DNA of 64,000 bases from Rhizobium sp. 007. GTDB taxonomy: Bacteria > Pseudomonadota > Alphaproteobacteria > Rhizobiales > Rhizobiaceae. Every line of letters begins with the position of its first letter. The stretch's first letter is position 1. The notes beneath the pieces were generated by a model. That model was not told the origin of the DNA, searched no databases, and saw only the letters and a list, made by a program, of their open reading frames with translations. This document shows, in pieces, positions 1-56,768 of this stretch. Made by a program: the position numbers and the translations under genes. Where the stretch lies: assembly GCF_015353075.1 (NCBI RefSeq), contig NZ_CP064189.1, forward strand, positions 186,001 through 250,000, written 5' to 3'.

Positions 1-362
1 GCGTCGGTGCCAGAAGGGGAAACGATGACTTCCAGCCCTCGGATTTGTTCCAAACGGCATAAGCCGATGAATTCGTTGCGAAGACTGCCGATCTCTTCTA
101 GATAAATTTCTTCCGGTGCCCGTCCATGCAGGGTCTGTAATATCCTTTGGCGCAGTCTTTCCGCAGCTGAAAATCCGATGTCAGAAATCGTAGATGCGGT
201 TGCGGAACCAAATGAGAATATTTCCCTGTCGGGAAGTGGTTTACGCCCGTACTTATTTGTCATTTGGCCAGCATCAAGTTCGATCCGCTCGTCACCCCCC
301 AAGGTTAACAACTCAGCGGTCGAAGGAAGATGAGTATTCAGGTGGGATAGCCGCTCTGTCAT
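1..362 (-). CDS. Partial CDS at window edge, possible PLP-dependent-fold protein
   Basis: The minus strand is open without a stop from an ATG at 362..360 to the window edge, giving 120 N-terminal residues. The start overlaps the NRPS stop in an ATGA arrangement, so it is probably translationally coupled and belongs to the NRPS operon. Visible segments are GGDERIELD, NKYGRKPLP, FGSATASTIS and, near the cut, a VSPSGTDA loop. This loop resembles the phosphate-binding region of fold-type I pyridoxal-phosphate enzymes, but the lysine region lies outside the window. Possible roles are supply or modification of an amino acid for the peptide. The gene is real by frame and coupling; the family is only an inference. 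Confidence 0.6.
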   Translation of the reverse strand, partial: MTERLSHLNTHLPSTAELLTLGGDERIELDAGQMTNKYGRKPLPDREIFSFGSATASTISDIGFSAAERLRQRILQTLHGRAPEEIYLEEIGSLRNEFIGLCRLEQIRGLEVIVSPSGTD

Positions 363-1240
363 TTGACATCCAGATTGCTGTTCGGGTGGGTAGTCGGCGA
401 ATTGTTTAAGGCTGCTGACAGTTGGCGCGCCAAGACCCGCCGGTTTTCCGGAACAGCCATCATCGTCACGTGATCGCCTGGAACGGGCACAGCCTGGATA
501 AACTCCGCGCCCAAAATTCGATCCCAGCCGCGCATTGGTGAATTTGCGTCCGGCGCTGCCGGAAGTCGCGCCCTTCGGCTAAGAGAGTGCTCCAGAGCAT
601 AAAATTGGTGCACGCTGACTGGCAGTGATGGCATCTCATACGAATGCACAGCTTGGTGAAATTGCGCGTATCTGATGGCGTCATAGTAGAGATCTGGTCT
701 ACCGACGACCGCACCGATTTGTCGCGCTTTCTCAAACAACTGCTCAACGGAACTCTGCCCGGCCGATTGGCGCAGCACCTCAAACCCCTCATCACCCAGC
801 GACTCCAGAGGTTCAAAGATCATTTGCAAAGCGATTTCTGTATCCGTCATCGCAGGCGACATCGCCGGTATTGGCACATCGATGAATGCCATAAATGAAA
901 CAGTTTCTTCGAGATAGAGCAGGCGCTCGGCGATTGCATACGCCAGTACAGCCCCAGAGGAATACCCGGCAAATCGATATGGTCCCCGTGGCTGCACTTT
1001 GCGTACTGCGTGCGTTACTTTTGTTGCAATCTCTTCAAGGCTTGATCGACGAGCTTCCTCAAATGGCGGCCAAGGCAAAGCGTAGACAGGGCAATCTATG
1101 TCCATCTCTCTGACTAAGGGGAACACATATGAGCAGTCGCCATAACCTGTCGGAACAAAGAAGACTGGCGCTTGAGACCCTATCGTGCGAACCGGTAGCA
1201 CACCGGGTGTATAATGGGATGAATCCAACTCGATCTTCGG
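359..1240 (-). other. Type I thioesterase domain (release)
   Basis: Alpha/beta-hydrolase domain at the C-terminus of the last module. It contains GYSSGA, giving the nucleophile Ser4442 of the protein, an aspartate in the following FID strand, and a histidine in a late GDHVTMM segment, so a complete Ser-Asp-His triad is plausible. It would cleave the finished chain from the last carrier by hydrolysis or by macrocyclisation. Because the predicted N-terminus is formylated, head-to-tail cyclisation is unlikely. Cyclisation through the Thr12 hydroxyl is one option, a linear acid the other. Confidence 0.85.
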
Positions 1241-56100: not shown

Positions 56101-56768
56101 AAGTTCAAGGCACGCGTCATCGCTGACAGATCTTGCGCGGGCCGATCCCATCGCAGACAGCCTGCCGCATCCGGGCGTCGACGTCTCGGAAAGTAGCTTC
56201 TGCTCACCAGCGCCTGCGGATAGGCAGTGAGCTCTCCCTTCGCCAAGCCAGTTAAAAGCTCGCGGAAGCCCTCGATCGCGGCTTCATAACATTTAAGGTT
56301 CAGGGTCAACGCCGTATCGGCGGGCGCAATCAGCACTTGGCGCTGAACCACGACGTCACCCGTATCAACACCATCATCGATCCGATGCCACGTGATGGCA
56401 TATTCGGTCTCCTGCGCCAGCAGCGCCCAGGACGTCGCGTGCGTTCCCGCATATCGTGGCAATGGACCGTCGTGGTAATTGAAAGCACCTTGACGCACTC
56501 GCCCAAACACGTCCGGTGGCAATATGAACGGATTGGCAACCGAGAAAATCCAATCTACCGGTTCGGCCTCCAAAAAAGACGAGAGCTCTTCAACGCTCCC
56601 TACACACGGGATGTTGGCGCGAGTCGCCCACTCTGCGAATATGGCGTCGCCACACAGGGCCGCACCAATGACGTGGCCCATCGCCATTGCCAGCTGAGCG
56701 CAGCTGATAGCAAGCGTACCACTGCCAACAACGATGCTGGAGGAGATTGACCGTGCTGCAGGGTTCAT
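53046..56768 (-). CDS. NRPS initiation module: formyltransferase-halfC-A(Phe)-T
   Basis: 1240-residue open frame that starts the giant NRPS. Residues 1-200 are a formyltransferase catalytic domain with Asn97 and His99 (FNYHDGPLP) and Asp135 (GVDTGD), the N-H-D triad of this fold. Residues 200-310 resemble the C-terminal OB subdomain of methionyl-tRNA formyltransferase. Residues 320-590 look like the C-terminal lobe of a condensation domain without any HHxxxDG. Then come A (code DAWTIAAVCK, Phe) and T (LGGHSLLA). Near 53405-53435 three single-base deletions cancel out and garble about ten residues. The frame breaks at about 53117 in the module 2 C domain. The ATG overlaps the preceding stop as ATGA, with only a weak AGGA ahead of it. 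Confidence 0.93.
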   Translation of the reverse strand: MNPAARSISSSIVVGSGTLAISCAQLAMAMGHVIGAALCGDAIFAEWATRANIPCVGSVEELSSFLEAEPVDWIFSVANPFILPPDVFGRVRQGAFNYHDGPLPRYAGTHATSWALLAQETEYAITWHRIDDGVDTGDVVVQRQVLIAPADTALTLNLKCYEAAIEGFRELLTGLAKGELTAYPQALVSRSYFPRRRRPDAAGCLRWDRPAQDLSAMTRALNLGPYHPNPLGLPKALVGDEVVTVRRLEVLPQRSGLPAGSLLEIHSSHWRVATGTQDVDVCFGSSDGQAVDARALARHSNLDEGGRLPILSDDEARSITAAHELLAPSEDFWRQRLEQLRILQFPFLSSCVAETPPKRQSSSWFMASALAKLSPNDRTEYLVTAWLIYLARITGETELQLGWTPASDRSQAGLKAVEVLIASVVPMEVTIDLAHDFEEVRKAVAAECAQLSEHASFARDLIARCPTLRGVEALRSHQPWPIGITITTDSGSVAGDLTTSQSAGSAPCGDLLTFEVCTQDGSFRWHFDASRLAPEQIDRMTQYLQTLLYGVTADAVQPVRELDILPAAERTYLLEDLNRTAADYPSERCIHELFEQQVRRAPEAVALVHEDDELSYGELNARANRLAHHLIGLGVRPDQPVAICLERSPAMVVGLLAILKAGGAYLPLDPAYPSARLRQVLEDAAPHLLLCDAAGRAALGPEALADLTVVDLETATPAWAELLASNPDPSALGLTARHLAYVIYTSGSTGTPKGVMVEHRSLVNLGLAQIGLFGVCSNSRVVQFASFGFDASAWELVMAFGSGAALHLPADEIRHASNKLSDYLRSESITHATLPPALLQASRDLGCLASQVLILAGELPKAELVRSLAPASIVNAYGPTEATVCATVWSCPDDFDGSVVPIGRPIANTRVYLLDGHGAPVPFGAVGELYIGGAGVARGYLNRAELTAERFLADPFSDEAGARLYRTGDLARYLPDGNLEFLGRNDDQVKIRGFRIEPGEIAARLCEHARVREAAVVARQDRAGDKHLVAYVVCGPEAGSDDEDGSGLAVALRAHLGGRLPDYMVPSAFVRLEALPLTANGKLDRKGLPAPADDAYARRSYEAPQGEIETALAGSGRASGAERVGRHDHFFELGGHSLLAVQLSSRLSQAVGVALPLTRLFARPVLSDLAASIVEALSRAGPQELPAIAAVSRHEPLVLSFAQQRLWFLAQLDEGSTQLSHSAGLAAAWWARPHRLAAQP
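53245..56768 (-). other. NRPS module 1: F-halfC-A(Phe)-T
   Basis: Loading module. The pocket DAWTIAAVCK differs from the gramicidin S/tyrocidine Phe code DAWTIAAICK only at position 330. The formyltransferase domain should transfer a formyl group from formyl-tetrahydrofolate to the carrier-bound amino acid, as in linear gramicidin synthetase LgrA. The next C domain is ordinary, so the residue should stay L. Confidence 0.85.

Follow-up and report, generated by a model that had tools for sequence, protein, structure and literature searches.

The locus described here raises the question of which peptide it specifies and when that peptide would be made. The window, meaning the whole stretch of 64,000 nucleotides analysed (Rhizobium sp. 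007, assembly GCF_015353075.1, contig NZ_CP064189.1; G000:C3:186001-250000 in our numbering), holds a long nonribosomal peptide synthetase (NRPS) operon that opens with a formyltransferase (F) domain. The analysis points to a probable answer: an F-initiated operon of a family of NifA-controlled, cassette-diversified synthetases whose N-formyl peptides would belong to the nodule stage of symbiosis. A 3,534-base stretch of replicon C2 was 99.2% identical to a megaplasmid of R. gallicum, placing the genome near Rhizobium gallicum and agreeing with the alphaproteobacterial host assumed in an initial annotation made from the sequence alone. The nodA and nifH genes lie on plasmid C5.

Assembly line and predicted peptide

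The whole assembly line lies on the - strand, between 56768, where gene A starts, and 359, where gene B ends, as judged from the ends of the open reading frames (ORFs). The initial annotation had treated this extent as one line; the extent stands, but the line is divided between two NRPS genes of 13 and 4 modules, the first of which is broken between frames. The last 17 bases of gene A also belong to the start of gene B. Motif scans and domain models made from the window's own domains gave totals of one F, 17 adenylation (A), 17 thiolation (T), 16 full condensation (C) and one thioesterase (TE) domain, so that together with Pfam they bear out the F-started, 17-module, TE-terminated line on one strand that had been proposed. 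Positions below are those of the window; dual C/E denotes C domains with a presumed additional epimerisation (E) activity.

14268..56768 (-): NRPS gene A, with F, C remnant and modules 1-13; several frames in the assembly
359..14284 (-): NRPS gene B, with modules 14-17 and TE; 4641 amino acids (aa), single open frame
55806..56744 (-): F domain, 313 aa, by Pfam and ArnA alignment
55050..55793 (-): C-terminal half of a C domain between F and A1, PF00668 profile positions 191-455
53508..55004 (-): A1, code DAWTIAAVCK
53298-53468 (-): T1
50087..53174 (-): module 2; C (LCL-like, split), A DANNVGEVGK, T
46800..49894 (-): module 3; dual C/E (split), A DANNVGEVGK, T
43512..46607 (-): module 4; dual C/E, A DANNVGEVGK, T
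40246..43319 (-): module 5; dual C/E, A (split; Ala-type code, read across the split), T
36952..40053 (-): module 6; dual C/E, A DILQLGLIWK, T
33736..36831 (-): module 7; C, A DILQLGLIWK, T
30541..33612 (-): module 8; C, A DLYNNALTYK, T
27322..30420 (-): module 9; C, A DGTKMGHVGK, T
24074..27129 (-): module 10; dual C/E (split), A DLYNNALTYK, T
20820..23873 (-): module 11; dual C/E (split), A DLYNNALTYK, T
17586..20699 (-): module 12; C, A DFWNIGMVHK, T
14403..17465 (-): module 13; C, A DLYNNALTYK, T
11048..14137 (-): module 14; C, A DATKVGEVGK, T
7835..10924 (-): module 15; C, A DANNVGEVGK, T
4553..7642 (-): module 16; dual C/E, A DAFWLGGTFK, T
1310..4360 (-): module 17; dual C/E, A DILQLGLIWK, T
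407..1180 (-): TE domain, motif GYSSG

The A3 motif was found 17 times in the window, GGHS in all 17 T domains and HHxxxD, as HHIVSDG or HHLIGDH, in 16 of 16 C domains. Pfam analysis of the first 1240 aa of gene A returned Formyl_trans_N (E=6e-17) and AMP-binding (2e-82), placing the formyltransferase N-terminal to A1-T1 in the first module, the layout of an F-initiated synthetase. Alignment to ArnA showed that Asn89, His91 and Asp127, which we take to be the positions of the ArnA catalytic residues, are all retained. The match to ArnA spans residues 64-300, that to LgrA only 59-182. An AlphaFold model of F with the half C domain had a mean pLDDT (predicted local distance difference test score) of 39 and was not used.

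Specificity codes were read with module 1 (DAWTIAAVCK) as anchor. We take DAWTIAAVCK to denote Phe, DILQLGLIWK Gly, DLYNNALTYK Ala, DFWNIGMVHK Thr, DAFWLGGTFK Val, DGTKMGHVGK an Asp-like and DATKVGEVGK an Asn-like residue; DANNVGEVGK, written X, is presumed to be Asn-like also. The order so obtained reproduced the substrate list of the initial annotation. An extra N-terminal HHxxxxxGD motif, as HHLLA[TS]RGD, was present in eight of the 16 C domains (modules 3, 4, 5, 6, 10, 11, 16 and 17). Beside HHxxxD it is presumably the mark of dual C/E domains of the arthrofactin type, and residues 2, 3, 4, 5, 9, 10, 15 and 16 are therefore predicted to be D. The peptide may accordingly be written formyl-Phe-D-X-D-X-D-X-D-Ala-Gly-Gly-Ala-D-Asx-D-Ala-Ala-Thr-Ala-Asn-D-X-D-Val-Gly, as the predicted acid or lactone. 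A linear [M+H]+ of 1605.689 was computed, assuming every X to be Asn and residue 9 to be Asp; the lactone would be lighter by 18.011.

The predicted upstream promoter

Upstream of gene A a predicted sigma54-type promoter is accompanied by motifs resembling NifA upstream activator sequences:

57551..57566 (-): sigma54-type -24/-12 site TGGCACGGTATATGCG, 9/11 consensus positions
57613..57670 (-): TGT-N10-ACA (NifA upstream activator-like) in three copies, whose starts precede the sigma54 site by 104, 79 and 62 bases

Both sequence elements of NifA-RpoN control, the -24/-12 site and TGT-N10-ACA upstream of it, are thus present. The same elements recur in front of related genes. Sixty upstream stretches were taken from the 61 F hits whose profile coverage exceeded 200 positions (L078, L079 and L080 were omitted as fragmentary, L075 for its short flank). 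A sigma54 site scoring at least 9/11 was found in 45 of the 60, and was coupled with a NifA-type motif in 23. Twenty rounds of shuffling gave means of 9.45 sigma54 sites and 0.15 coupled sites, with maxima of 16 and 1, and control sets of 60 gave 12 and 0 (coding DNA) and 14 and 0 (reverse strand). When the stretches were grouped at 90% identity, 19 of 29 groups held a sigma54 site and 10 of 29 a coupled one; removal of the six loci of this genome left 39 and 17 of 54 stretches, respectively. At cluster K5 of this genome the sigma54 site lies 229 bases upstream of the F domain.

A scan of the whole of C3 gave five sites, every one bordering an NRPS gene on its upstream side. Four of these genes are F-started; the fifth site lies at the earliest start codon available to a different NRPS frame. 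On C5 there were 11 sites, three of them before NRPS genes. Taking the longest frame starting within 900 bases, seven of the remaining eight (site 271213 was left out) were assigned to nifB, nifS, ETF-alpha (FixB-type), OmpW, an M16 peptidase, an omptin and a P450-like frame. Reversed sequence gave one site for C3 and none for C5. The nifH promoter, used as a positive control, was missed by the scan pattern, with a TGT-N10-ACA motif seen 218 bases upstream; in M. loti and R. etli nifH has A, not C, at -12 (PMC3538637), a base that the pattern does not allow there. A -24/-12 variant ending ATGCG occurs among the putative NifA operons of M. loti listed in the same source (PMC3538637).

An NRPS gene of B. 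diazoefficiens, blr2108, is reported to be a target of NifA+RpoN1 and to rise 39-fold in bacteroids (PMC6515984), and has a log2 value of -4.6 in a tabulated column taken here as the nifA mutant (PMC4926349). That such a gene is a NifA+RpoN1 target makes NifA control of the window NRPS plausible.

The omptin protease (L024:508-1635) and M16 peptidase (L112:12009-13478) of C5 both lie downstream of NifA-type promoter pairs, and a possible function for them would be the processing of host peptides.

Distribution among nodulating rhizobia

A pattern search of species-level genomes returned 41 loci, confined to Mesorhizobium, Bradyrhizobium, Sinorhizobium/Ensifer or Rhizobium. A plasmid search gave 72 records at 60% identity or above and 2914 with any match; the 40 records listed all belonged to rhizobial genera, including Paraburkholderia sabiae. 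At E<=1e-100, F was found in four of 100 sampled genomes of the own genus, all four with NodA (NodA in 43/100), and in two of 397 genomes of the order sample, both with NodA (NodA in 9/397); G000 was counted in both samples. The family sample gave three of 394 at this threshold (G000, G045 and G086). The matches in 27 of the 30 matching genomes of that sample were weaker, with E from 6.5e-49 to 5.5e-68; they fall in open frames 1144 to 1588 aa long and perhaps represent another protein family.

In the Bradyrhizobium-like genus of G652, where the positions of several matches are shared with named Bradyrhizobium contigs, F was present in 38 of 242 genomes and NodA in all 38, with NodA in 130 of the 242 overall (Fisher p=2.9e-12, relatedness ignored). 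F and TE, with 2 to 13 modules, were seen in 15 of an initial set of 17 plasmid loci, and in some of these a domain at the end is partial. L085 and L098 represent a single locus; no TE closes L094 or L097. A four-module version with Pro-type, Ile, Ser and Phe codes is common to P. sabiae and R. jaguaris. In this formyl-Pro-type/Ile/Ser/Phe NRPS of a beta- and an alpha-rhizobium (L082:20019, L083:20022), an ectoine-synthase-like gene lies a few kb away.

Specificity cassettes

Same-type C domains of different window modules were 99-100% identical in DNA, and between modules with different codes identity dropped to 30-50% over the stretch from A3 to about A6. Across 202 complete A domains, protein identity in this core (151 aa in module 1) was 91.6% for pairs with equal codes and 30.7% for unequal codes, whereas the flank from A7 to the end gave 87.5% and 81.2%. 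Comparison of this genome with other loci gave core values of 91.2% and 29.8%. Specificity thus moves as a cassette of about 150 residues. Subdomain swapping is already known in NRPSs; its extent here is striking.

Frame breaks and the number of modules

Five of the 33 A and C domains examined in the window cluster are split between frames, compared with 27 of 65 in cluster K4, the 33-module line of the same genome, and 5 of 13 in K3. The ratio of indels to mismatches in split domains was 24:118 in the window cluster, 151:228 in K4 and 16:472 in K3, against 121:4780 in intact copies; the indel share thus lies above that of intact copies in the window cluster and K4 and is not clearly raised in K3. 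Homopolymers of at least three bases held 6 of 24, 41 of 151 and 0 of 16 of these indels, respectively. One split C copy differed from another copy by no mismatch and a single gap. The breaks are likely, though not proved, to be consensus errors in near-identical repeats.

The module count was examined against an independent assembly. From window position 53182 to -2699 (2.7 kb beyond the window edge), the DNA is collinear with S. medicae ml4 plasmid pMl2 (NZ_CP140931): four segments follow one another along a single diagonal, with identities of 80.6, 83.6, 88.4 and 92.9%. Sixteen ml4 modules match window modules 2-17 in order, agreeing in 15 of 16 residues (14 codes identical; split A5 counted as Ala) and in all 16 C types; the penultimate residue is Leu in ml4 and Val in the window. 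Downstream, both have TE, the 511-aa protein described below, a ParB-like protein and a further hypothetical protein. The module count is therefore real for these 16 modules, as the initial annotation had it, and an artefact of assembly is ruled out. By the same token the core is not unique: the supposed one-off is matched in 16 of its 17 modules and is one of six F-started clusters in its own genome.

Further relatives vary about this layout. S. medicae WSM419 pSMED03 (SMED_RS33235/RS31710) has the same operon layout with 16 modules in partly different order; S. meliloti AK21 (14 modules) and 1132 (15 modules) have ends similar to those of the window cluster, and the version in R. leguminosarum Vaf10 is short and degenerate. 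Long related genes form single frames elsewhere: S. medicae ml2 has one of 41.6 kb, S. meliloti ml59 one of 37.2 kb and WSM419, whose genome was sequenced by Sanger chemistry at about 13x (PMC3035259), two of 26.7 kb. A term search of the text available for that genome paper returned no mention of NRPS (PMC3035259).

It is at the front that the window departs from these relatives. Four from Sinorhizobium have a short F (178 profile positions) followed directly by C, without the A(Phe)-T module of the window, and have a LysR gene nearby in place of a NifA-type promoter. The window front end instead resembles its siblings in the same genome, with F protein 97-98% identical to three of five and DNA about 90-99% identical, which suggests that front ends have been exchanged or homogenised within the genome.

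Flanking genes and further clusters

57729..58334 (-): 4'-phosphopantetheinyl transferase (PPTase; carrier-protein activator), upstream of gene A
1..362 (-): start of the gene for a 511-aa protein; whole gene G000:C3:184827-186362, with a 4-base overlap with the end of gene B

The operon continues beyond the window after gene B with the 511-aa gene, a ParB/SerK-like protein and a further ORF. The 511-aa protein matched no Pfam or NCBIfam family. A plasmid search found 18 records with copies at 90% identity or above; the 15 listed all adjoin NRPS genes of Sinorhizobium or R. leguminosarum, and those on the plasmids of these taxa are 93-95% identical. The cluster is flanked by a DDE transposase (IS240 type; 58942-60120) and a DUF3422 protein (62652-63884). 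An aminotransferase-like remnant occupies 56770-57550, between promoter and gene A; L061 and some other loci have an open aminotransferase frame upstream of F.

The six F-started clusters of the genome have 8, 17, 7 and 33 modules on C3 and 2 and 5 on C5. The 33-module NRPS (G000:C3:342327-450463) runs from F to TE over 108 kb with a predicted hydrophobic peptide; we know of no longer bacterial NRPS line. A second type of NRPS (L017:5311-14448 on C3, and a related C5 stretch at 345-351 kb) has the order A-T-C-A-T-C followed by MatE and PPTase genes. It carries the same NifA-type motifs and has relatives of about 37% identity on rhizobial plasmids.

Interpretation and alternative explanations

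As reconstructed here, NifA and RpoN would activate the operon in nodules that have reached the low-oxygen stage of nitrogen fixation, and the PPTase would arm the carrier domains. F would formylate Phe on T1, 16 modules would add the remaining residues while dual C/E domains turned eight of them to D, and TE would free the peptide as acid or lactone. The nitrogen-fixation-type switch upstream means that the site of synthesis may be the legume nodule, and peptides would differ from strain to strain because cassettes of about 150 residues are swapped between modules and species within a conserved scaffold. Tentatively, this may be extended to four rhizobial genera and a beta-rhizobium, all making NifA-switched N-formyl D/L peptides of 2 to 33 residues in nodules, with cassettes swapped between modules, plasmids and species; a diversifying repertoire for strain conflict or host dialogue would result, in which the window represents a 16-module line fitted with a NifA-controlled formyl-Phe loading module. 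At a guess, held with low confidence, the role is nodule-stage competition with bacteria or dialogue with the host; we would also guess that it is neither that of a siderophore nor needed for nodulation itself.

Several observations weigh against this interpretation. The sigma54 site lies about 780 bases upstream of gene A with aminotransferase-like remnants between, so that the promoter may once have served another gene. No sigma54 site at or above 9 was found in 15 of the 60 upstream stretches and no coupled motif in 37; the 60 hold near-duplicates, and a control on C1 and C2 (35,184 bases over both strands) gave one coupled hit. Within 1.5 kb, the Sinorhizobium relatives of the window cluster lack a NifA-type promoter. 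The blr2108 gene, likened to the window as an NRPS with a NifA-RpoN link, may lie outside the F family, and its transcript is given as unchanged in microoxic culture (PMC6515984). Of the 130 genomes with NodA in the Bradyrhizobium-like sample, only 38 have F. Only 10 of 14 aligned F sequences, that of the window among them, retain the catalytic Asp, and gene A is split among frames in the assembly. In the 5-kb flanks of the F and TE ends, the recurrent neighbour families that were annotated (four of the 28 largest besides PPTase: aminotransferase, glyoxalase-like, ectoine-synthase-like and a weak TauD) included nothing recognisable as an exporter or immunity gene.

Two alternatives draw directly on these points. 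The cluster might be a decaying relic, its breaks genuine mutations and its 17-mer never produced, which would suit the splits in gene A, K4 and K3, the leader remnants, the position of most indels outside homopolymers and the hardly raised indel share of K3. We judge it unlikely given that open frames are kept in gene B, the PPTase gene and the 511-aa gene, that indels per mismatch are raised in the window cluster and K4, with one split copy differing from its counterpart by a single gap, and that the long genes of ml2, ml59 and WSM419 are single frames. The promoter motifs, for their part, might be due to chance or belong to the lost aminotransferase, with the NRPS under other control such as LysR, as in Sinorhizobium. 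The five cluster relatives examined, which have LysR nearby and no motif, agree with this, as do the distance and the remnants; the excess of motifs upstream of F genes over controls, the location of all five C3 sites at NRPS genes and the closeness of the K5 site to its F domain make it improbable.

Other functions have been weighed on the same evidence. Rhizopines are controlled by NifA, and the NifA-type motifs, strain-specific structures and plasmid location would fit nutritional mediators of that kind, made in nodules and used by kin outside. Such a peptide would be a very costly nutrient, and no recurrent catabolic or uptake genes were recognised among the annotated neighbours of the clusters, so this account is held to be quite doubtful. 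A siderophore synthetase is scarcely credible and was ruled out on the codes and the neighbours scanned: the A domains of the window include, as we assume from their codes, none for hydroxyornithine or catechol, no iron-ligand genes occur among those neighbours, and the motifs upstream are of the NifA type. What speaks for it is that siderophore pathways are served by formyltransferases as well, these being separate enzymes and not F domains (PMC8949500).

The preferred reading, a NifA-controlled family of nodule-stage formyl peptides, draws its interest from 41 loci with a closely related F domain, which is linked with genomes carrying nodA as well as with a switch of the nitrogen-fixation type. 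Should it be correct, legume nodules would be a site of dedicated, fast-changing peptide chemistry, and the condition under which the compounds should be sought is indicated. The A-domain mosaics offer peptide engineers a ready collection of natural swap points.

Comparison with known synthetases

No described product or family of such peptides, nor any compound with the predicted sequence, was found in the open-licence PubMed Central literature, in keeping with the initial annotation. Linear gramicidin synthetase possesses separate E domains, and the kolossin A line has 15 modules for residues other than those of the window. LgrA-D resembles the window in placing F ahead of A1, and LgrA A1 matches window A1 at 378 bits; unlike LgrA-D, the window has half a C domain between the two. 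The terminal reductase (R) and separate E domains of the linear gramicidin type were not found in the window, which has TE and dual C/E domains. Glidonin D (2023) is described as formylated by a separate enzyme, with no F domain (PMC10587159). A 2022 review names three F-domain products, anabaenopeptilides, linear gramicidin and kolossin A (PMC8949500); the initial annotation had rightly cited the last two and left out the first. Linear gramicidin synthetase ends in R where the window ends in TE, and the kolossin A synthetase of Photorhabdus carries F in its initiation module, as does the window (PMC8949500).

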